From assembly GCA_017410365.1 (NCBI GenBank), contig JAFQQY010000013.1, positions 1 to 56,770 of the forward strand: 56,770 nucleotides of DNA. The letters are read 5' to 3'. The notes beneath the pieces are model-generated. The model saw only the letters and a program-made list of their open reading frames with translations, made no database searches and was not told the DNA's origin. The position numbers were made by a program, and so were the translations under genes. This document shows positions 3,237 through 55,534 of the stretch, piece after piece. Numbering within the stretch: the stretch's first letter is position 1; the number at the start of each line of letters is the position of its first letter. This stretch comes from Prevotella sp. Its GTDB lineage: Bacteria; Bacteroidota; Bacteroidia; Bacteroidales; Bacteroidaceae.

Positions 3237-4511
3237 TTACTCAACCTTCCACTTGGCGAACCAATTTTCGTTGAACGTGATGCCGAGATTGATGCGGAAG
3301 GTGTTTTCGGTAATCATATTGCTGGCCGACGAGTGTACCCACTGGGCACTGAAGTTGAACATCGACTGGCGGTTCTTGTATGTCGTGATTGGCAAACCGA
3401 AACCGATGCTGGCGGAGTATTCCTTAGGTCCGTCGGCTCCGTTGACGGTGATGTAAGGAGTGGCATAGGATGCTCCGGCTCTGTAGCGCACCTTCTGAAG
3501 GAAGCGTCCTTCGGCATTTGGCAGCCACTCGGCACCTACAGTTATCTTGCTGCGGTCTTTAAGCAATCCCGACTTGAGCTCATAGGCACCTGTCTGAGGG
3601 TTTGTCTCTGGGAAGTCTACCCCGCCCCACTTCTGCAATGTGTAGTCAACTCCGAAGGTCAGGTTGTCCTTGTGCTTCCATGCGAATCCCACTCCGAACG
3701 TGGTAGGAATGCTGAGGGCATCGGAAACGCTCATCGTGTCGGTGGTAGAGACGGCCGTCTGAGAGTTGGTATTTGAAATCATCGATTGTGCGTCTGCTCC
3801 GAGGTCATGGCCAAGACCGTAGGTAATGCCCACGGTGAGCAGGTTGTTCTTGTCTATCTGCTGTTGCCACTGCACGCCCAGGTCGAGCTTGTAACTGTTT
3901 ACGCTGGTGGTATAGTTCTTGATTACGCTGTTCACGTAGCTGTCGCTGTTAACCACGGTTATCTTCTTGTCGTAAGTGCCCCAGAGATAAGAGAGGTTGG
4001 CACCTACCGACAACGACTTGAGCACGCTCCATCCTACACCCACATAAGCCTGATGAAGTCCGCCGGAACCAGAATAGGTCTCTACAGAGGTCATGGTAGA
4101 GTTGATTACCTTGCGGTCGTTGTAGTTGTAGCCGATGTTGGTATATGGCAGCACACCGGCGCTGAAGCCCAAGCCTGGCATCAGGCGGAAGGCAGCCACG
4201 GCATACTCGAAATCGGCATTATAGGCGTTGATGCTCGCTCCGTTCTCCTTGAAGTTGGTCACCTGTCCAGACATGCCCAAATCGAAGAGCATGGTCAGCG
4301 AGTCGACGGCCGAGTAGGAAGCGGGATTCATGGCGTTTACATGATTGCCGCGCATACCGAGCGCCAAACCGTTCATGCCTCGGTTGAAGCCCTGCGACTG
4401 GTCGGACAGTATGCCCAAGCCGTACTGGCTGTATGGAGAGTTTGTGCCGCTCTGTGCGGAAGCTGTAAGCGCAGACGCTGCCAACAGACAATTGATTAGA
4501 ATTCGTTTCAT
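3237..4511 (-). CDS. Outer membrane beta-barrel protein, FadL/OmpP1-like
   Basis: A 424-residue secreted protein with a clear signal peptide (MKRILINCLLAASALTASAQ) followed by the N-terminal 'SPYSQYGLGIL' motif seen in Bacteroidetes barrel proteins. The body has alternating amphipathic strands rich in Gly, Tyr and Asn (LGFSAGVLPYTNIGYNYND, LGVQWQQQIDKNNLLTVGI, FGVGFAWKHKDNLTFGVDY) and ends in a short aromatic strand (NWFAKWKVE). This resembles the FadL/OmpP1 (TodX) transporter group, but no substrate can be given. It lies between coaX (47-nt gap) and lptC (27-nt gap) on the minus strand, so it is probably cotranscribed with them. Often annotated only as a hypothetical outer membrane protein. 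Confidence 0.7.
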   Translation of the reverse strand: MKRILINCLLAASALTASAQSGTNSPYSQYGLGILSDQSQGFNRGMNGLALGMRGNHVNAMNPASYSAVDSLTMLFDLGMSGQVTNFKENGASINAYNADFEYAVAAFRLMPGLGFSAGVLPYTNIGYNYNDRKVINSTMTSVETYSGSGGLHQAYVGVGWSVLKSLSVGANLSYLWGTYDKKITVVNSDSYVNSVIKNYTTSVNSYKLDLGVQWQQQIDKNNLLTVGITYGLGHDLGADAQSMISNTNSQTAVSTTDTMSVSDALSIPTTFGVGFAWKHKDNLTFGVDYTLQKWGGVDFPETNPQTGAYELKSGLLKDRSKITVGAEWLPNAEGRFLQKVRYRAGASYATPYITVNGADGPKEYSASIGFGLPITTYKNRQSMFNFSAQWVHSSASNMITENTFRINLGITFNENWFAKWKVE

Positions 4512-46922: not shown

Positions 46923-46971
46923 GAAGAAAAAATTGTTATTTTGCATGATTTTATTTTTAATTAATTCAATT

Positions 46972-49143
46972 ATGCAAAACAACAATCTGCCTTCGCTGTT
47001 TAAAGGAATGTATTCCGCCAACAGCACAACTATCGAATGGCAATCCGTGGCTGACATGATTGCCGGTGAATCATTGAAAAACGATACGGAGAAGTATCGG
47101 AAGATGAAAGAATGCGAGCTCGACAAGGATGCCGACGCCGTCAAGAAGCGACTGCCATGCATCACGCCAGCTGTTGAGTGCAACGGCGGGCGAAAGAAGG
47201 AGCACCTCGTGGCACTAACGGGTGTTTGCATGTGCGACTTCGACCATGTTGGCAATCTGGAAGAGTGCTTCGCCAAGGCCATTGAATGCGAGCACACGTT
47301 TCTGGCCTACCGCACCATTTCGGGGCACGGACTGCGCATCCTCTTCCGGGTGGTTCACGATGACGGCTCTGCCCTACCCTCGCCAGACAAGGCCGGTAGC
47401 ATGGCTCCGGGATTCGAGGAGGGCAACAGGCTATATGCCGAACTGCTGGGCGAGGAGTACGACAAACAGTGCAAGAACATCGGACGACTGTCGGTGCTGT
47501 GCCATGATGCCAACGCTTATTTCAATCCCGACGCCTCGCCTATACCAATAGCTCCTCACGCTGAGAAGGTGAAGAAGAACAAGAGCAAGGCCAGCAGGCT
47601 AACAAAGGTGGTCAAGGCCATTAAGAAGCAGTTGGACACGGAGGGGATAGAATACCGTAAAGGCAGCTACAACATGTACGTGATGCGCGCGGGCTATCTG
47701 CTCAACTGCTACGGCATTGAGAAGAGTCAGGCTGAGCAATGGGCTGTAAGCACGTTCAATGATTACGACAGCGACCAGGTGCGCGCCATCATAGCCTCGT
47801 GCTACAAGCAAGAGGATGAGTTTGGCAGCCTTTCCCTGAATAGGAAGGCGCCTAAGGACAAGCAGCCTTATGCCACCGTAGAACAGATTGAGGAGTTTCT
47901 TGCATCACAGGGCAAGTTCCGATACAACATGATAACGAGGAAGACGGAAGCGATGCTTAATCATGAATTAGGAATTAATAATTCTGACAACAATGACAAT
48001 CCAACAAACTCTCACCCCTCATCTCTCATCCCCCATCAAGCATTCTCCGAACTCACCGACCGCGACGTCAACTCACTGTGGCGCAGCATGTCGAAGCAGG
48101 GCTTTAACGTAAAGGTTCTGCACATGGTCAACGTGATACAGTCGAGCTTCGTGCCACTGTGGAATCCGTTTGAAGACTACTTCTATTCGTTGCCAAAGTG
48201 GAACGGCGAGACCGACTACATCGCTCTTGTGGCGAATATGGTGAGGGTGAAAAGGCATGGTTCGGAAACTCAGGAGGAGGCTCAGCAGAGGTTTGTGGAG
48301 TGTCTCAGAAAATGGCTCGTGGCTATGGTGGCATCGCTGCTCGACAGAAACGTTGTCAACAATGTCATACTCGTGCTCGTAGGTCGTCAGGGCATCTACA
48401 AGACCACCTTCTTCAACCATCTCCTGCCGCCACCATTGCAGCAGTATTTCTTTACGAAGACCAACAGCGACCGCATGACCAAGGACGACAAGCTGTCGCT
48501 GGCAGAGTTCGCCATCATCTGTCTGGAAGAGCTTGACTCCATGAAGCAGGTTGAACTCAACCAGTTGAAGGCACTGATAACAACCAAGACCATCAGCGAG
48601 CGTGCCGCCTACGACCGCTTCAAGTCCAACCGCCAGCACATAGCATCGTTCTGTGGCACCGGCAACAACATACAGTTCCTGACCGACGACAGCGGCAACC
48701 GCCGTTGGCTGCCGTTTGAGGTGGAGAATATCGACGAACCGCAGCCTCATAAGTTCCACTATACCGACCTATACAGTCAGGCCACCACCCTATGGCAATG
48801 CGGCTTCCGCTACTGGTTCAACCAACATGAGATAGACACGCTGGCGGCCTATGTCTCCAACTTCGAGCAGGTATGCATCGAAGAAGAACTGCTGCTCACC
48901 TACTACCGCAAGCCTCTGCCCGGCGAGCAATGTCAGGAACTCACCTGCTCAAACATCATAGAGAAGATAAACATGTATATCAAGAAGTCGCTGTCGGCAA
49001 ACATTTTGGCAAAAGTATTAAGAAGGAATGGGTTTGAATGCCGCCGCAGTAAAAAGGGCACTTTATATGCTGTCGTTGAGCTTTCTGGAGCTGAAATTGC
49101 TACTAACAAAAGGAAGTATATTTCGAATGACGCCAACGAGTAA
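46972..49143 (+). CDS. VirE/VapE-type primase-helicase protein
   Basis: A 723-residue protein of mobile-element type. N-terminal BT4734-like primase-related domain (about residues 40-190; VCMCDFDHVGNLEE, FLAYRTISGHGLRILFRVV); middle PriCT-like helices (AEQWAVSTFNDYDSDQVRAI); C-terminal VapE/VirE superfamily-3 helicase-like P-loop ATPase with Walker A VGRQGIYKTTFFN and Walker B FAIICLEELDSM. A linker near residues 325-350 (NNSDNNDNPTNSHPSSLIP) is encoded by intergenic-type low-complexity DNA. ATG 46972 is chosen since the family start MQNNNLPSLF follows and upstream codons would encode a spurious hydrophobic stretch. Typical first gene of the VirE-DUF4248-smalltalk-HU-amidase gene set. Confidence 0.88.
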   Translation: MQNNNLPSLFKGMYSANSTTIEWQSVADMIAGESLKNDTEKYRKMKECELDKDADAVKKRLPCITPAVECNGGRKKEHLVALTGVCMCDFDHVGNLEECFAKAIECEHTFLAYRTISGHGLRILFRVVHDDGSALPSPDKAGSMAPGFEEGNRLYAELLGEEYDKQCKNIGRLSVLCHDANAYFNPDASPIPIAPHAEKVKKNKSKASRLTKVVKAIKKQLDTEGIEYRKGSYNMYVMRAGYLLNCYGIEKSQAEQWAVSTFNDYDSDQVRAIIASCYKQEDEFGSLSLNRKAPKDKQPYATVEQIEEFLASQGKFRYNMITRKTEAMLNHELGINNSDNNDNPTNSHPSSLIPHQAFSELTDRDVNSLWRSMSKQGFNVKVLHMVNVIQSSFVPLWNPFEDYFYSLPKWNGETDYIALVANMVRVKRHGSETQEEAQQRFVECLRKWLVAMVASLLDRNVVNNVILVLVGRQGIYKTTFFNHLLPPPLQQYFFTKTNSDRMTKDDKLSLAEFAIICLEELDSMKQVELNQLKALITTKTISERAAYDRFKSNRQHIASFCGTGNNIQFLTDDSGNRRWLPFEVENIDEPQPHKFHYTDLYSQATTLWQCGFRYWFNQHEIDTLAAYVSNFEQVCIEEELLLTYYRKPLPGEQCQELTCSNIIEKINMYIKKSLSANILAKVLRRNGFECRRSKKGTLYAVVELSGAEIATNKRKYISNDANE

Positions 49144-49144
49144 G

Positions 49145-49269
49145 GGTGAGGCTGGTGAGGCTAAAATTGAAATTTTAAAAACCTATTACGCGTGCGCGCA
49201 CGCTTTAATAAAAGGCAATTTGGACTTTCTAAAATAAAAAGTTTACAAACAGGCCTCACCAGCCTCACC
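49145..49269. repeat. Nested inverted repeats downstream of the VirE-type gene
   Basis: Outer arms GGTGAGGCTGGTGAGGC at 49145-49161 and its exact complement at 49253-49269 (17 bp) enclose a 14-bp perfect palindrome GCGTGCGCGCACGC (49191-49204). The arms themselves contain a direct GGTGAGGCT duplication. Could be a terminator-like structure or replication origin feature. Confidence 0.6.
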
Positions 49270-49310
49270 AGCGTCACCCTCATAAATAAAAAAACACTCA
49301 TAACTATCTT

Positions 49311-49419
49311 CATTCGCAATCATTCGCAATTATTATTCGCATTCGCTCATCAACACGTCGTTGTCGTAGAAAAGAATCAGGCAAACCGCACCACTTTCGA
49401 GTCAAAACCGCACCACTTT
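49311..49419 (+). repeat. Short iteron-like direct repeats
   Basis: CATTCGCAAT occurs twice in tandem (49311-49320, 49321-49330) with a degenerate third, and AAACCGCACCACTTT twice at 22-bp period (49383-49397, 49405-49419). No gene is seen in 49144-49542. Confidence 0.5.
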
Positions 49420-49504
49420 TGGGGTGAAACACGCCTACTTCCGTATCAACTATTTCATTCTAAATATTTGAGGATTAAAAGGTCTTATCTAAGGATATAA
49501 TCTG

Positions 49505-49540
49505 TTTTTATGTCTAAGGATCTTGGGATTTCAAGGATAA
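49505..49540 (+). repeat. Dispersed intergenic repeat, copy 2
   Basis: Contains TTTATGTCTAAGGATCTTGG and GGATTTCAAGGATAA; related to 26268-26298 and 55849-55888. Confidence 0.5.
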
Positions 49541-49542
49541 TA

Positions 49543-49794
49543 TCATTTCGCATGATATCTGTTGACGAAGGTTTTAAATTGAGACACTTTCGCTGCCTTT
49601 TTATATTCAATAAGTTTTTGTTCCACCAGTTGTTTTAGATTCCTTGTAAGGGTTGACTTACTTTTTCCTATATAAGTTATTATGGCAGGGATCTTTACTC
49701 CTGAATTGTTCTTTATAAATTCAAGAATGTCTTTTAATACGTCATTTACAGGGTCTTCCATAACCGACTCGTATTTACCTCCAAAGTGGTTCAT
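49543..49794 (-). CDS. Small winged-helix DNA-binding protein behind the Abi gene
   Basis: An 83-residue protein: MNHFGGKYESVMEDPVNDV, then a winged-helix region (ILEFIKNNSGVKIPAIITYI, KSKSTLTRNLKQLVEQKLIE). The DPVND and HTH pattern is that of the C-terminal part of AlbA_4-type (Schlafen-like) transcriptional regulators, so it may be a fragment of one or a stand-alone regulator. The ATG at 49794 overlaps the Abi stop by 20 nt, indicating cotranscription. Confidence 0.55.
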   Translation of the reverse strand: MNHFGGKYESVMEDPVNDVLKDILEFIKNNSGVKIPAIITYIGKSKSTLTRNLKQLVEQKLIEYKKAAKVSQFKTFVNRYHAK

Positions 49795-50698
49795 TCTTCC
49801 AATTTGTCGGAAAACCGATTTTATGAATAGGTATGCCTTGTGAACTTGCCTCAAATAACGCCTTTACTTTTTCTTGGATAGATTTGCTACCACTTACGGC
49901 GCTACAGAGATAAACCAAGGCGCAAGCTACTGCATAAGGCTTTTTCTTCTGCATTTCTGAGAATTCGTTATTCAACCAAAGGTCTCTATGCCCCTTGATA
50001 TTCGAGATTTTCTTGCTTAGTGCTCTATTCCATAGACGAGAATGGTGTGCTATGATATTTCGCATTAACGAGATTATCTCTATCCAGTTAGAAAACTCTC
50101 TCGATGAGTAAAGCCCAAAATCATTTGCAATGGCTGACTTTTGAGGCAATTGATTCTTCAAGTTTTTGTACATCTTCGATAATGTACCGAAAGTAGCAAC
50201 CTCAATTATCATCCAAGCATCAGGATTATCACCATCAAAACTATCCCCTTGCCAATTGGGATGGTTCTCAATGTACTTCTTGGCAAAGGGTTCTGTGCTT
50301 CTCTCAAACTCATATTTCAAGTTAAGCACAAATTCCTGATGCCTTTCAGTGTCCTCAAACAATGATGAATCTAGATACCAAAGTCCGTTACCTGCACCCC
50401 TTGACATGTGATGAATAACTTTGGCACGGAAAGCCACTTCAATCATTTCTATTGCATCGAATAACACCAATCGTAGGTTATGGTCAAAATTATATCGTTT
50501 CATAACCATATCAAAAGATGTATCAGGCAAGAAATCACCATCAGTAGATTCATCTATGAGGTCAGTCCAGAAATACTTCAAACGGAAATAGCTGATTCGA
50601 GCAAGCAATGCTTTTGCTTCACTCAAATCTTCAAACTCCATACCTTTTGCTCTGAGTAACGAAATCTGTTCTTCTATTGTACGTGGGCGTTGGTTCAT
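49775..50698 (-). CDS. Abi_2 (AbiD/AbiF-type) abortive infection protein
   Basis: A 307-residue Abi family protein of HEPN type, likely an RNase toxin acting in phage defence. It starts with the family motif MNQRPRTIEEQISLLRAKGM, has NFDHNLRLVLFDAIEMIEVAFRAKVIHH (residues about 70-97), and carries the HEPN catalytic motif R-x4-H in LMRNIIAHHSRLWNR (about residue 215). Full length for the family. A short RNA-like structure with its own strong promoter precedes the gene, and a winged-helix gene overlaps its 3' end. Lower GC than housekeeping genes, consistent with transfer. Confidence 0.85.
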   Translation of the reverse strand: MNQRPRTIEEQISLLRAKGMEFEDLSEAKALLARISYFRLKYFWTDLIDESTDGDFLPDTSFDMVMKRYNFDHNLRLVLFDAIEMIEVAFRAKVIHHMSRGAGNGLWYLDSSLFEDTERHQEFVLNLKYEFERSTEPFAKKYIENHPNWQGDSFDGDNPDAWMIIEVATFGTLSKMYKNLKNQLPQKSAIANDFGLYSSREFSNWIEIISLMRNIIAHHSRLWNRALSKKISNIKGHRDLWLNNEFSEMQKKKPYAVACALVYLCSAVSGSKSIQEKVKALFEASSQGIPIHKIGFPTNWKNEPLWR

Positions 50699-50701
50699 AA
50701 T

Positions 50702-50790
50702 AATAAAAAAGTGACCCGCCAGCAGTTCTACGGGATGCTAACGGGTTCTGTTATCATTGACTCGGCACAAACCGATAATCATCATATTTC
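50702..50790 (-). ncRNA. Candidate abiF-motif RNA upstream of the Abi gene
   Basis: A transcript from the promoter at 50796-50827 would run about 88 nt to a hairpin with 11-bp arms (50736-50746 and 50714-50724, two G-U pairs, 11-nt loop) followed by CACTTTTTTATTATT, a terminator form placed only 4-10 nt before the Abi ATG. An upstream weaker helix (TTATC with GATAA; CGG with CCG) is possible. The conserved 'abiF RNA motif' is known upstream of abiF/abiD genes with terminator-like 3' ends; membership here is inference. Confidence 0.55.
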
Positions 50791-50795
50791 AGATG

Positions 50796-50827
50796 CAAAG
50801 GTAATGCTTTTTATCTCAGATAACAAA
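50796..50827 (-). promoter_or_regulatory. Strong promoter for the Abi RNA and gene
   Basis: TTTG (50824-50827), a 20-nt spacer and TACCTTTG (50796-50803) on the minus strand: a full match to the Bacteroidetes -33/-7 pattern, the best in the window together with 54781-54812. Confidence 0.75.
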
Positions 50828-51023
50828 TAATTGCAGAAATATTTTACAAGAATCATGCTATTTTACTCAGATTCATTACAACTTCATCGAGTTACCACGC
50901 TTCTGAACTGATGAACGCAGTGAATAATTGAAGGATAACTTCCTTCTAACTCCTGTTACCTATCAATTTCTTTAATCTGAACTTTATGTCTATATGTCGT
51001 GCATGGAAATAATTATAATAAAT

Positions 51024-51063
51024 CTTGGTTTTGCCACAAAAATATAGTAACTTTGTGGCAAAA
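51024..51063 (+). promoter_or_regulatory. AbiE promoter with overlapping 12-bp palindrome
   Basis: TTG (51024-51026), 21-nt spacer, TAACTTTG (51048-51055). TTTTGCCACAAA (51029-51040) and TTTGTGGCAAAA (51052-51063) are perfect 12-bp inverted arms, the right one covering the -7 element. AbiEi antitoxins autorepress through inverted repeats; this is the likely operator. Confidence 0.75.
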
Positions 51064-51072
51064 TTTAAGATT

Positions 51073-51678
51073 ATGGGTTCAAATAGCTCTTATAGGGCAA
51101 TGTGTGATGCGGTAGAACAAGCAAAAGCTGGAACGATTTTCATACCTGACGATTTCGTAATGTATGGTACTCCCGATGCGGTGCGTTCAGGATTGACACG
51201 CTTATGCCGTAATAATAAACTATATCGTTTTGCCAAAGGTATCTATTATGTACCAATGTATGATAAATGGGATGGAACACTCCGCGAACCATCGTTGGAT
51301 GCTATTGCTCAGAAAATAGCGCAACGAGATAATGCTCGCATTATACCAACTGGTGCATACGCCCTTAACAAATTAGGACTATCAACACAAGTCCCTGCCA
51401 ACATCATCTACATAACAGATGGTTCCGCTCGACAGATTAAATTTGGTGAGGGTAAAAGTATTACGTTTCGTCATAGTAATGATTTAAGCAACTTCGCTTA
51501 TCAGTCCAAGTTAATACAACTGGCCATACTTGCCATGAGGGAGATTGGTGAAAAATTGATCACAGAAGAACAAACTGTTAAAATAAAGAATATGATAACT
51601 CAACATGTATCGGAACAAGACTTCAATCACGACATTGTACTTGCTCCAACATGGGTAAGAATGATACTTCAACGATGA
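51073..51678 (+). CDS. AbiEi-type antitoxin (DUF6088)
   Basis: A 201-residue type IV antitoxin/repressor. N-terminal winged-helix segment (IFIPDDFVMYGTPDAVRSGLTRLCRNNKLYRFAKGIYYVP) followed by an antitoxin domain (IIPTGAYALNKLGLSTQVP, FRHSNDLSNFAYQS). In known AbiE systems this protein counters the toxin without binding it and represses its own promoter. The ATG at 51073 (MGSNSSYR) is placed about 10 nt after the predicted transcript start; the 51025 start would lie in the operator. Its stop overlaps the toxin start by 4 nt (ATGA). Confidence 0.87.
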   Translation: MGSNSSYRAMCDAVEQAKAGTIFIPDDFVMYGTPDAVRSGLTRLCRNNKLYRFAKGIYYVPMYDKWDGTLREPSLDAIAQKIAQRDNARIIPTGAYALNKLGLSTQVPANIIYITDGSARQIKFGEGKSITFRHSNDLSNFAYQSKLIQLAILAMREIGEKLITEEQTVKIKNMITQHVSEQDFNHDIVLAPTWVRMILQR

Positions 51679-52703
51679 AATATATTGATTTATCAAAGGA
51701 AGATCGAATAGATGTACTTGACCGTGTTTCTACGGAATTAAACATAAAGCAACGTGAGGTAATAGAAAAAGATTGGTGGGTTACGGCAGTGCTTCGAGCT
51801 TTGTTCAACCTTCCATACGCACAACATTTGTCTTTCAAAGGAGGTACGTCATTAAGCAAGTGTTGGCATTTAATCGACCGCTTCTCTGAAGATATAGACA
51901 TTGCCATCGATAGGGAATATCTGGGTTTCAGCGAAATCCTGTCAAGAACACAAATCAGTGATAAATTACGCCGAGCTACATGTCTTTTCGTAAGAGAAAT
52001 TATGCAGCACGATTTAGCAGAACAATTATATAATGATGGTATTGCAAAAGATAAATTTCAGATAAATGTTGATATCACACCTATCTCTACAACCGATCCT
52101 GAAACAATAAATATCAATTACGATTCAGTTTTAACATTTTCGGTTGGTGTAGAAAACGGTTTGTATGTTCTGCCCAAAATCAAGGTAGAGGTGAGTGGTA
52201 GGTCTATGAGTGAACCAGTATGTGAAGTTCCTCTTGAATCAATGATTGACCAAGTTTATCCGAAAGCTCCTTTTTCTGAACCAAAGTTTAATGTTAGAAC
52301 CGTTCTTCCAGAACGTACGTTTCTTGAAAAGATATTTCTATTACACGAAGAATTTGCCAAACCGAAAGATTTGATTCGAGTAGATCGAATGTCAAGACAT
52401 ATGTATGATATTGGCCAAATGCTAAAAACATCTATAGCTGATAGTGCTATCCATAACGAACAGCTATATTGCAAAATAATAGAACATCGTCGTACATTCA
52501 TCAGATTGCGTGATTTTGATTACGATTCACTTTATCCTAACACTATTAACATCATTCCTCCAGCTTCTATTATTAAACAATGGGAAACAGACTATGAGAA
52601 TATGCGTTTACATATGATATATGGAGAATCTGTTTCATTCGAAGAGTTAATAGACAATCTAAGACATTTTAATGAATATATAAAGAAGATAAACTATAAC
52701 TAA
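51675..52703 (+). CDS. AbiEii/AbiGii nucleotidyltransferase toxin
   Basis: A 342-residue nucleotidyltransferase-fold toxin, the partner of AbiEi. The catalytic motif is clear: HLSFKGGTSLSKCWHLIDRFSEDIDIAID, with GGTSLSK and the SxDxD metal-binding Asp pair (about residues 55-80). AbiEii toxins are bacteriostatic and transfer nucleotides to tRNA in studied members. The ATG at 51675 lies in the ATGA overlap with the antitoxin stop. AT-rich composition compared with core genes supports transfer. Confidence 0.9.
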   Translation: MKYIDLSKEDRIDVLDRVSTELNIKQREVIEKDWWVTAVLRALFNLPYAQHLSFKGGTSLSKCWHLIDRFSEDIDIAIDREYLGFSEILSRTQISDKLRRATCLFVREIMQHDLAEQLYNDGIAKDKFQINVDITPISTTDPETININYDSVLTFSVGVENGLYVLPKIKVEVSGRSMSEPVCEVPLESMIDQVYPKAPFSEPKFNVRTVLPERTFLEKIFLLHEEFAKPKDLIRVDRMSRHMYDIGQMLKTSIADSAIHNEQLYCKIIEHRRTFIRLRDFDYDSLYPNTINIIPPASIIKQWETDYENMRLHMIYGESVSFEELIDNLRHFNEYIKKINYN

Positions 52704-52909: not shown

Positions 52910-53173
52910 TCAAGGTTCCCCAAGAGCCTCAACAATCAGTCTCACCTGTGCCGGAGTGAAAGTACGCTGATGAGGCACATACCCCAGTTCACTCAAATGC
53001 ATGTTGAGATTAGGGAACAAGTCAATCCACTGCATCAGCTTGCGGAATGCCGAGCGTGGCACCATATAAGGGAAGTACTGCTGAGCCAGTTCCATGCGCC
53101 CGTATGTCCGGTATTTGAACCCTTCCATATCCCCTCCCAATGAGGGGGAACCGTGAAAATTACCATTGTTCAT
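52910..53173 (-). CDS. DUF4248 family protein
   Basis: A protein of 87 residues or fewer with the DUF4248 core FKYRTYGRMELAQQYFPYM followed by SAFRKLMQWIDLFPNLNMHL, then SELGYVPHQRTFTPAQVRLI. Family members sit between VirE-type and HU-like genes in Bacteroidales; role unknown, probably DNA-related by its helical core and setting. ATG 53173 follows the TAATTTTG promoter (53206-53213) by about 30 nt; ATG 53128 (MEGFKYR) fits the family N-terminus better, as residues in between come from a palindromic repeat (SPSLGGD). Confidence 0.75.
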   Translation of the reverse strand: MNNGNFHGSPSLGGDMEGFKYRTYGRMELAQQYFPYMVPRSAFRKLMQWIDLFPNLNMHLSELGYVPHQRTFTPAQVRLIVEALGEP

Positions 53174-53205
53174 ATTCTTCGTAAATCTGTTTATTGCCAA
53201 CTCCA

Positions 53206-53213
53206 CAAAATTA
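53206..53213 (-). promoter_or_regulatory. Promoter -7 element for the DUF4248 gene
   Basis: TAATTTTG on the minus strand, upstream of both possible start codons. Confidence 0.5.
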
Positions 53214-53319
53214 CTCAAATAATTCAACATAACCAACTGATTTACAAAGAATAATTCACATTATCTCACTCTTTTTTACAGCACCTCTCCCTACCTCACA
53301 TTTCCATTTTCTGATGTTG

Positions 53320-53588: not shown

Positions 53589-54011
53589 ATGTTACGTTAC
53601 AAACTTTATCAAAACAACAATCAGAAAAGTACACAGTATGGCAAATGGTATGCGCGTGCTGTATGTGAAGAAACCTACAATCTTGAGTCGCTCGCCAAAC
53701 ACATGTCGGAGCACAACACGCCATTCTCGGCGGGTGTCATCAAGGGTGTCCTGACCGACCTCGTGGCATGTGTCAAAGAACTTGTTCTTGACGGCAAGAA
53801 CGTGAAGCTAGACGACCTCGCCATCTTCTCATGTGGTCTGCGCACCACTCCTGCTGACAGTGCAGACAAGTTCACCGCTGCCAGCAACATCACCAAGGTT
53901 ACTCTCCGCAGCCGTGCCACCGGCAATCTCTCAACTGCTGAGTTGAAGGCTGCCGCCACCATACGCGAATACACTGAGTACAGTGTAGAGGCACCTTCAA
54001 CAGGTGATTAA
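53589..54011 (+). CDS. HU-like DNA-binding protein (HU-HIG type)
   Basis: A 140-residue HU-superfamily protein: beta-helix start MLRYKLYQNNNQKSTQYGKW, helical core (LESLAKHMSEHNTPFSAGVIKGVLTDLVACVKELVLDGKNV) and DNA-binding arm region (LDDLAIFSCGLRTTP), then a C-terminal extension. Longer than classical HU (about 90 residues), as usual for this island-borne family. Likely a DNA-bending nucleoid protein of the mobile gene set. Confidence 0.85.
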   Translation: MLRYKLYQNNNQKSTQYGKWYARAVCEETYNLESLAKHMSEHNTPFSAGVIKGVLTDLVACVKELVLDGKNVKLDDLAIFSCGLRTTPADSADKFTAASNITKVTLRSRATGNLSTAELKAAATIREYTEYSVEAPSTGD

Positions 54012-54114: not shown

Positions 54115-54329
54115 TTCTTATGTCAAAAATAACATTATGTCTTTATGTCTAAAATAACATTATGTCTTTATGTCAAAAATAACATTATGTCTTTATGTCA
54201 AAAATAACATTATGTCTTTATGTCTAAAATAACATTATGTCTTTATGTCTAAAATAACATTATGTCTTTATGTCAAAAATAACATTATGTCTTTATGTCA
54301 AAAATAACATTATGTCTTTATGTCTAAAA
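54115..54329 (+). repeat. Eight tandem 25-bp repeats before the amidase gene
   Basis: Eight copies of TAACATTATGTCTTTATGTC plus five variable bases (CAAAA or TAAAA), period 25 bp, ending at or in the amidase start region. The core word TTTATGTCTAA also occurs in the dispersed repeats at 26268 and 49505. Confidence 0.85.
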
Positions 54330-54334
54330 AACAA

Positions 54335-54721
54335 ATGCGAAGAATCACCCTCATCATCCTACACTGCTCTGCCACTCCCCCATCAAGCAGTTTGAGTTTC
54401 GAGGCCTGTCGGAAAGACCACATCGAGCACCGAGGATTCAAAGACATAGGCTATCATTATTACATCACTCGCGACGGCGTTCTGCACCACGGCCGCCCAG
54501 AGCATCAGGTGGGTGCGCACTGCAAGAATCACAATCGCCACAGCATAGGCATCTGCTATGAAGGGGGTATCGACGAGAACGGCAAACCTGCCGACACCCG
54601 CACCCCAGAACAGCTCGCCACATGGTACACCCTCCTAACAGTCCTGCAGCACCGCTACCCAAAAGCCCTCATCGTCCGCCATCGTGACCTCAACCCCCAA
54701 AAAGAGTGTCCTGGATTTTAA
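54335..54721 (+). CDS. N-acetylmuramoyl-L-alanine amidase, truncated C-terminus
   Basis: A 128-residue Amidase_2-fold enzyme that cleaves the amide bond between MurNAc and the stem peptide. Zinc ligands: His in IILHCSATPP, His in GAHCKNHNRHSIGI, and the RHRDLNPQKECPGF motif (His and Cys). The protein stops directly after CPGF, whereas relatives continue for 15-25 residues, so it is slightly truncated; all zinc ligands are kept. ATG 54335 (MRRITLIIL) matches the family start; the in-frame ATG at 54320 lies in the last 25-bp repeat. Confidence 0.85.
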   Translation: MRRITLIILHCSATPPSSSLSFEACRKDHIEHRGFKDIGYHYYITRDGVLHHGRPEHQVGAHCKNHNRHSIGICYEGGIDENGKPADTRTPEQLATWYTLLTVLQHRYPKALIVRHRDLNPQKECPGF

Positions 54722-54839: not shown

Positions 54840-55064
54840 ATGAGTGAACTTAATAAAAATAAAATCAGTTTCCTTGTTGCCCTCATCAATGAGTTTGGGC
54901 AACGCTTTGGATTGTCTAATGTCGATTCCTATCGTTACATTAGTCAATACGGTGGTGTCCAAATGTTTCTAGAACATTATGATATTCTGCATACACTATC
55001 CTTTAGAGACATGGTCGATGGATTAGCAGCATATTGCAAAAGAAAAGGAGGAACATTAGGATGA
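54840..55064 (+). CDS. DUF3791 family protein, candidate antitoxin
   Basis: A 74-residue small helical protein (NKISFLVALINEFGQRFGLS then YRYISQYGGVQMFLEHYDIL). The pattern is that of DUF3791, which is regularly encoded directly upstream of DUF3990 genes. Stop overlaps the next ATG by 4 nt (ATGA at 55061). Antitoxin role is inferred from operon order and small size. Confidence 0.72.
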   Translation: MSELNKNKISFLVALINEFGQRFGLSNVDSYRYISQYGGVQMFLEHYDILHTLSFRDMVDGLAAYCKRKGGTLG

Positions 55065-55534
55065 GATTATTCCACGGTTCAAATATGATAATTGAAGTCA
55101 TAGATCTGACTAAGTCCAAAAAGTTTAAAGATTTTGGACAAGCATTTTATTTGTCTGCAGATGAAGAACAAGCAATGAAAATGGCTGTAGCCAAAGTTGT
55201 ACAATTTGGCGGAGAAGAATCTGTTACTTCGTTTGAGTTTGATGAAAGATGTCTTAACTCAAAAGATTTAAAAGTAAAATTCTTTACTGAATATTCAGGC
55301 GAATGGGCTGAATTTATATTTAACAATCGTGATGAAACAAAAAACTTTCAACATTCGTATGATATAGTTTATGGTCCGATAGCAGACGACTATATAGGTT
55401 TACAGATACGTGATTTTAAGCGCCATAACATCACATTCGAACAATTTATATCAAATATTCGCTACTACAAAGGTATAACATTTCAATACGCATTCTGTAC
55501 ACAGAAAGCAATTGAGCAACTTGTACGACTATGA
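55061..55534 (+). CDS. DUF3990 family protein, likely ADP-ribosyltransferase-type toxin
   Basis: A 157-residue protein: MRLFHGSNMIIEVIDLTKSK, KDFGQAFYLSADEEQAMKMA and EWAEFIFNNRD ... YDIVYGPIADDYI are the diagnostic DUF3990 motifs. The order 'hGS...FGxGFYlt...EF/W-E' resembles the ART fold (H-Y-E type), with His in LFHGS, Tyr in FYLS and Glu in WAEF as putative catalytic residues. Start ATG at 55061 is preceded by AAAGGAGGA, a rare good Shine-Dalgarno for this window, and overlaps the DUF3791 stop. Toxin function is inferred. AT-rich. Confidence 0.75.
   Translation: MRLFHGSNMIIEVIDLTKSKKFKDFGQAFYLSADEEQAMKMAVAKVVQFGGEESVTSFEFDERCLNSKDLKVKFFTEYSGEWAEFIFNNRDETKNFQHSYDIVYGPIADDYIGLQIRDFKRHNITFEQFISNIRYYKGITFQYAFCTQKAIEQLVRL

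Follow-up and report, generated by a model that had tools for sequence, protein, structure and literature searches.

A predicted AbiF toxin-RNA antitoxin locus in Prevotella with a bulge-less leader RNA

The window analysed here is a stretch of 56,770 nucleotides from a Prevotella sp. contig (JAFQQY010000013.1, assembly GCA_017410365.1), and the locus under study lies on its (-) strand. Reading this strand directly confirmed what an earlier note on the same DNA had described, namely a promoter, a leader with an 11-bp hairpin and a U tract ahead of an ATG, and a HEPN gene. The leader also holds a second hairpin that the earlier note had not mentioned (H1, 50775-50762). In order of transcription, the features are:

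50796..50827 (-): Bacteroidota-type promoter; -33 box TTTG at 50827-50824, 20-nt spacer, -7 box TACCTTTG at 50803-50796; read directly
50705..50790 (-): predicted antitoxin RNA (AbiFr-like), ~86 nt, from conservation, covariation and fold (z -2.87), its start placed from the promoter
50762..50775 (-): H1, small 5' hairpin TCGGT-TTGT-GCCGA, 5 bp; the stem sequence varies among relatives and pairing is kept
50748..50752 (-): AACAG single strand 5' of H2, kept with small changes in both RNA classes (bulged and bulge-less)
50714..50746 (-): H2, 11-bp hairpin including a wobble pair; arms 50746-50736 and 50724-50714
50735-50725 (-): H2 loop UCCCGUAGAAC, 11 nt
50705..50710 (-): U tract, 6 nt upstream of the ATG; read directly
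49775..50698 (-): AbiF ORF (Abi_2, HEPN), 307 aa, ATG at 50698
49543..49794 (-): winged-helix ORF, overlapping the 3' end of AbiF and placed outside the system

We take transcription to start at ~50790, applying the Bacteroidota promoter spacing rule to the -7 box.

The protein encoded at 49775..50698 matched Pfam Abi_2 with an E value of 3.4e-53 (181.1 bits against a curated cut-off of 25.6), and PADLOC identified it as AbiD (E 3.2e-66). It aligned with PbAbiF, chain A of PDB 8vz6, which was solved with its RNA antitoxin (E 6.8e-41; Zilberzwige-Tal et al. 2025, via PMC12373285, PMC12737573 and PMC12804078), such that R213 and H218 fall on R210 and H215 of that structure. The R-x4-H HEPN motif reported in the earlier note is present as R213-N214-x3-H218, and its R, N and H are invariant in 26 of 26 aligned sequences; an AlphaFold2 model of the protein is confident (pLDDT 93.7, pTM 0.89). 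R210 and H215 are reported as required for PbAbiF activity, and AbiFCd is reported to be toxic, with changes at R202/H207 abolishing its toxicity (PMC12373285). By analogy with these relatives, we predict that the window AbiF is a HEPN ribonuclease toxin with the RNase activity and toxicity published for them. Scans of viral_contigs with the AbiF protein, and with one exact hairpin pattern in its CCCG/CGGG form only, returned no relative.

The winged-helix-like ORF that overlaps the toxin gene was also as described (MarR_2, E 1.1e-6; HTH_24, E 3.9e-5). Its conservation, which the earlier note had listed as a check, did not bear out a role in the system: in a tblastn comparison of 89 loci, the whole ORF was found intact in the window alone (L001, L060) and behind no other AbiF. 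The remaining matches were either the out-of-frame end of AbiF or stop-broken remnants, the latter behind the near AbiF relatives L002, L061, L062 and L063. The sequence behind AbiF in L063 runs ...NGRINDVLEIIKNSPKI and then reaches a stop, L062 retains a VND-type stretch, and both stretches read as decayed copies of the tail of the ORF. Across 201 genomes the ORF was matched in nine, its own included, and the two best matches outside its own genome are terminal parts of longer frames (514 and 478 aa), the first of which (L091) combines SLFN_AlbA_2, HATPase_c_4 and HTH_24. Most simply, the ORF would be the severed C-terminus of a Schlafen-AlbA_2 (SLFN_AlbA_2/HATPase_c_4) protein. Given its absence in intact form behind any other AbiF of these 89 loci and its broken remnants in near relatives, we rejected it as a partner in the system.

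The leader RNA is more stably folded than expected by chance: its 87 nt reach -25.6 kcal/mol against -17.2 (sd 2.9) for shuffled sequences, with 1 of 200 shuffles as good, and the 48-nt core reaches -16.9 against -9.1 (2 of 200 as good). H2 reads as the abiF RNA motif in a bulge-less version, and H2 with its U tract is likely an intrinsic terminator. The promoter/terminator scan, which covers neither Bacteroidota promoters nor loops above 8 nt, did not call H2, whose loop has 11 nt. R1, a model that we built from window-type cores, matched the window leader a single time, at one H2 unit, and there are no tandem repeats. Sequence features that would suit a type III layout, with one promoter and a terminator between RNA and toxin gene, follow one another: promoter boxes (50827-50796), H2 and U tract as candidate terminator (50746-50705), then the ATG (50698).

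To assess conservation, we drew on 58 loci from GTDB contigs and on the 123 family genomes, out of 301, that gave a match, and retained the 55 AbiF loci with at least 43% protein identity and enough upstream DNA, counting the window once (L060). The hairpin core stands before AbiF in 50 of these, its U tract ending no more than 19 nt from the projected start codon; six pairs are one locus present twice with identical flanks, and without these repeats 46 of 49 distinct loci carry the core. Upstream of each of these 50 intact cores lies a TAnnTTTG or TAnnTTCG box, and every one of the leaders has a U tract, which a C interrupts in L005 and L070. All 50 also carry the loop pattern GCAU(A/C)CCnn(n)AGAn(C/U)UGC, which was drawn from this same set, four of its members being locus repeats. 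In the other five loci, three of them distinct (L062/L003, L063/L004 and L006), the leader is cut or replaced and the AbiF gene stands without an intact RNA. In 46 of the 50 leaders, 35 nt or more of additional 5' sequence precede the core, and L037, L038, L039 and L044 begin at the core.

Pairing in both hairpins was compared with controls. Across 24 distinct cores, 98.5% of the 264 cells of the H2 stem are paired, and 22 cells are changed on both sides, as against a mean of 8.1 in shuffles and 0-1 in slid controls; double changes fall in four pairs, a number reached by 31 of 500 shuffles and hence a weak measure on its own, and six of the 11 pairs are invariant. Of the 35 distinct long leaders, 33 have a hairpin at the position of H1 (L012 and L028 are the exceptions), compared with a mean of 8.5 and a maximum of 17 in 200 composition-only shuffles, and its stems are diverse (UCGGU/GCCGA, UUGGC/GCCAA, UCACGA/UCGUGA, UGUAGGU/GCCUACA). 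When tried on three plasmid loci outside its building set, R1 found an RNA before AbiF in two, those of Prevotella nigrescens (L189, 64 bits) and Chryseobacterium shandongense (L190, 42 bits), and gave no match at the third, B. fragilis pBFS01_1, where the leader is of the bulged kind. R1 also scored 61 bits in L056, before an internally shortened AbiF frame, and the window-type element precedes AbiF in Parapedobacter as well (L044). These data establish a conserved, structured RNA directly before abiF in the branch to which the window belongs.

The earlier note had pointed to the Rfam abiF covariance model as a check on the leader, and had counted a missing hit among the outcomes that would speak against its reading. 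This model (RF03085, gathering threshold 37 bits) gave no match in the window at 49000-51500 at E<=1; the only Rfam matches there were two to mir-8186, one per strand, at a palindrome at 51020-51073 and far under threshold. RF03085 likewise had no match in the window's own genome; control genomes gave none either, and the same family does match in the loci of relatives. Scanning 36 distinct loci at the gathering threshold, 18 of window type (including L063 with its cut hairpin) and 18 below 43% identity, we found that RF03085 passes in none of the former and in 7 of the latter. Alignment revealed that the window RNA contains both stems and the 11-nt loop of RF03085, and that window-type RNAs correspond to RF03085 minus 6 nt on the 3' side between the inner and outer stem. 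The window leader goes unmatched because it belongs to a branch without this 6-nt 3' bulge. RF03085 represents one portion of the family and not the whole.

The two classes nonetheless have much in common: the loop, the position, the 5' AACAG and the U-rich end are found both in the window branch and at distant AbiF loci, seven of which pass RF03085, and the window loop is unchanged in L085 at 32% protein identity. R1 also finds bulged RNAs before AbiF in L137, L138, L154 and L157 (the gene being broken in L157), at 30-34 bits, all of which Rfam misses at E<=0.5, and it weakly matches several more among the 21 distant loci scanned. In 14 leaders below 43% identity an AACA-like start lies 4-5 nt after the -7 box, leaving no room for H1; for this count the -7 box was placed before the RNA by a script, which misread L083 and recognised no box in L050, L052 and L053. 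Two bulged RNAs have no fold advantage over shuffles, of which 27 of 200 do as well as L085 and 50 of 200 as well as L087. From these comparisons, the window RNA would be a bulge-less RNA, accompanied by an extra 5' hairpin in most of its branch, that probably doubles as a terminator. By eye, the long leader of L035 has a second, RF03085-like stretch before its window-type hairpin (2852-2940, +), which Rfam did not score over threshold; this leader is perhaps a two-motif RNA like RCd22.

We then asked where else the hairpin occurs. With strict filters, and so as a lower bound, R1 gave 40 matches in 32 of 251 genomes of the family: 14 directly before AbiF, one with AbiF ~260 nt further on, one before a broken AbiF, three in leaders without their gene, 18 solitary and three weak (31-35 bits). 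One of the weak matches, L156, resembles a bulged leader without a gene. Seven of the 18 solitary copies lie 11-125 nt behind SLFN_AlbA_2 genes or their remnants, three behind AbiEii genes (in the case of the third, L141, the gene was recognised by eye in the coding end), and two come after AbiF or a fragment of it (L133, L149). The window's own genome (G000) has one such copy (L134), following a second AlbA_2 tail (C18:49742-49927); tail and copy together span C18:49742-50020. The loop pattern is kept in 11 of 18 copies elsewhere as against 50 of 50 before AbiF, the set from which it was drawn; for this comparison L145, identical to a copy in L131, was left out and L058 added. Among AbiEii homologues of at least 95% identity, two have an intact hairpin (the two through which this family entered the comparison), two a half and two none, and three AlbA_2 homologues at 42-51% identity have no hairpin. 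On a plain reading, the solitary copies would be relics of AbiF loss, some of them kept as terminators.

A hairpin copy is also seen behind AbiF in close relatives (L133, at 2280-2328 and 3339-3386 (-); L002; L003) and with partial AbiF in L045, L048 and L057. In loci with a copy on either side, the two form direct repeats around AbiF, and a recombination event joining them would produce a solitary copy. Half hairpins occur in L063 (~1456), L181 and L182, where similarity breaks near the loop, as if at a recombination junction; we set aside site-specific recombination at the hairpin, as no common junction rule emerged by eye. We also dropped the idea that solitary hairpins act as a guard linking AbiF to neighbouring defence genes, since G123, G144, G020 and G240 hold solitary copies and gave no AbiF match, with the proviso that some of these genomes are incomplete and absence is no proof.

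Starting from the gene and its catalytic motif, the promoter-like boxes, the RNA structure and its conservation, and the homology to a solved AbiF-RNA complex, we consider it likely that the locus encodes an AbiF toxin together with its RNA antitoxin, a type III-like unit of the AbiF-AbiFr type, in which terminated leader RNA in excess silences the HEPN dimer. One promoter would yield the leader RNA; H2 and the U tract would end most transcripts before the gene, a termination ratio that we infer, giving short RNA in excess, and read-through would give little toxin mRNA, in which H2, ending 15 nt before the ATG, would probably also hinder ribosomes. The AbiF dimer would bind the RNA at the loop UCCCGUAGAAC, the AACAG single strand and the stem, these contacts being putative, and the bound RNA would hold the HEPN active site (R213, H218) shut. 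If the supply of short RNA were to stop, for example when a phage halts host transcription as a presumed trigger, free AbiF would cut RNA and arrest growth. Toxicity, RNA binding, neutralisation and the dimer are carried over here from published relatives, with direct binding and neutralisation of the window AbiF modelled on AbiFCd-RCd22 and PbAbiF, and H1 is given only a presumptive role. In the former pair, RCd22 is reported to bind AbiFCd and to neutralise it in cis and in trans, and stem integrity matters (PMC12373285).

The likeness to these systems has clear limits. The window AbiF, a HEPN Abi_2 protein, is 31% identical to PbAbiF over 299 aa with the catalytic R/H aligned, and PbAbiF works with a short structured RNA, as the window toxin would. 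By contrast, the nearest relative of PbAbiF among the loci compared (L087, 51%) has a bulged RF03085 RNA (59 bits), whereas the window RNA has no bulge and an added 5' hairpin; AbiFr is judged here via L087. A review places the inhibiting nucleotides of AbiFr, C32 and U38, in a single-stranded bulge (PMC12737573), so that inhibition by the window RNA, which has no 3' bulge, would need other contacts. The order predicted for the window, with abiF behind a promoter, a structured leader RNA and a terminator, is also that of AbiFCd-RCd22 of the Clostridioides difficile phage phi027, but RCd22 is described as two abiF motifs with a separate terminator (PMC12373285), where the window has one motif whose stem is itself likely the terminator. 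With RF03085 the window RNA shares its place before abiF, the inner stem and loop, the AACAG-like 5' end and the U-rich end, and it differs in lacking the 6-nt 3' bulge, for which the model misses it. The ToxIN/AbiQ toxins belong to a different family from AbiF. Those type III systems likewise rely on excess short RNA from a terminator-limited operon that binds an RNase toxin (PMC12373285), and unlike them the window RNA has no tandem repeats.

Several observations count against an AbiF-RNA antitoxin: the missing RF03085 match and bulge, the single H2 unit in place of the usual type III tandem repeats, the 5 of 55 loci (three distinct) without intact RNA, the failure of the terminator scan to call H2, the B. 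fragilis plasmid without an R1 match, and the shuffle-like folds of L085 and L087. The strongest competing account, which we hold to be improbable, is that the leader works exclusively in cis, attenuating abiF or switching its translation, without ever neutralising the toxin in trans. A hairpin and U tract beside the start codon would suit attenuation or ribosome blocking, and there is a precedent in lactococcal AbiD1, for which a phage protein is reported to bind the leader and thereby turn on translation (PMC2661086). Yet a plain attenuator needs no fixed loop, while the loop pattern is kept in every leader with an intact core before AbiF and is found again, for the most part, in distant bulged RNAs, and the RNA of a relative is reported to neutralise in trans (PMC12373285).

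Two further accounts are very unlikely. That the hairpin is a generic mobile terminator of the bacterial family, standing before abiF by chance, might be suggested by the 18 of 40 R1 matches that lie away from the front of AbiF, often right behind other genes; but the matches are confined to 32 of 251 genomes (a lower bound under strict filters), the presence before 50 of 55 AbiF genes would be left unexplained, the same element precedes AbiF in Parapedobacter, Chryseobacterium and Prevotella nigrescens, and the loop pattern, though drawn from the copies before AbiF, is less well kept elsewhere. To a three-part system of toxin, RNA and a winged-helix regulator or sensor we assign almost no probability: the ORF is intact and overlaps the end of the toxin gene, but its solitary occurrence among the 89 loci, its best matches at the ends of longer frames, the first an SLFN_AlbA_2/HATPase_c_4 protein, and its broken remnants in L002, L061, L062 and L063 all speak against it. 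Of the type III-like unit with a third part put forward in the earlier note, the RNA antitoxin and HEPN toxin are retained as well-supported predictions, by homology to 8vz6, continuity with RF03085 and covarying structure, and the DNA-binding third part is not. We conclude that this is most likely an AbiF toxin-RNA antitoxin system of known kind with a variant RNA, with no third component supported. A more far-reaching version of this reading, which we regard as doubtful, holds that the window represents a second structural class of AbiF antitoxin outside Rfam, in which the bulge was lost, the 5' hairpin and AACAG would block the HEPN site and the stem would have become a terminator, and that the solitary copies behind AlbA_2 and AbiEii genes would be orphan antitoxins disarming incoming AbiF elements.

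As RF03085 overlooks the leader RNA at many of the AbiF loci studied here, with none of the 18 window-type loci scanned passing its threshold, annotation that relies on it will overlook them too. A literature search, judged by titles and the openings of abstracts, found no publication on the bulge-less RNA class; the broader models of the Cell 2025 authors (AbiF5_iter3.CM and diverse_rna_xinsi.CM, as named in PMC12804078) may include this class, which would limit its novelty. Published accounts regard AbiF as the ancestor of Cas13 (PMC12373285, PMC12737573), and for this reason the range of RNAs that hold AbiF shut bears on the origin of guide RNA from an antitoxin, a question made testable by a class in several Bacteroidota that lacks the bulge to which blocking of the active site is ascribed.

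The surroundings of the locus contain other genes of interest. A divergent type IV toxin-antitoxin-like pair lies at 51025-52703 (+), consisting of a DUF6088/AbiEi-like gene (51025-51678) and AbiEii (51651-52703). The palindrome TTTTGCCACAAA...TTTGTGGCAAAA lies within 51020-51073; assuming AbiEi autoregulation, we take it that this could be the operator of the AbiEi-like protein. Further downstream, adjoining DUF3791 and DUF3990 genes at 54840-55534 (+) are perhaps another small conflict module. A VapE/BT4734-like gene (46933-49143), DUF4248 (52910-53236), an HU-HIG protein (53589-54011) and an amidase (54320-54721) together look like what remains of a mobile element, set around the defence genes.
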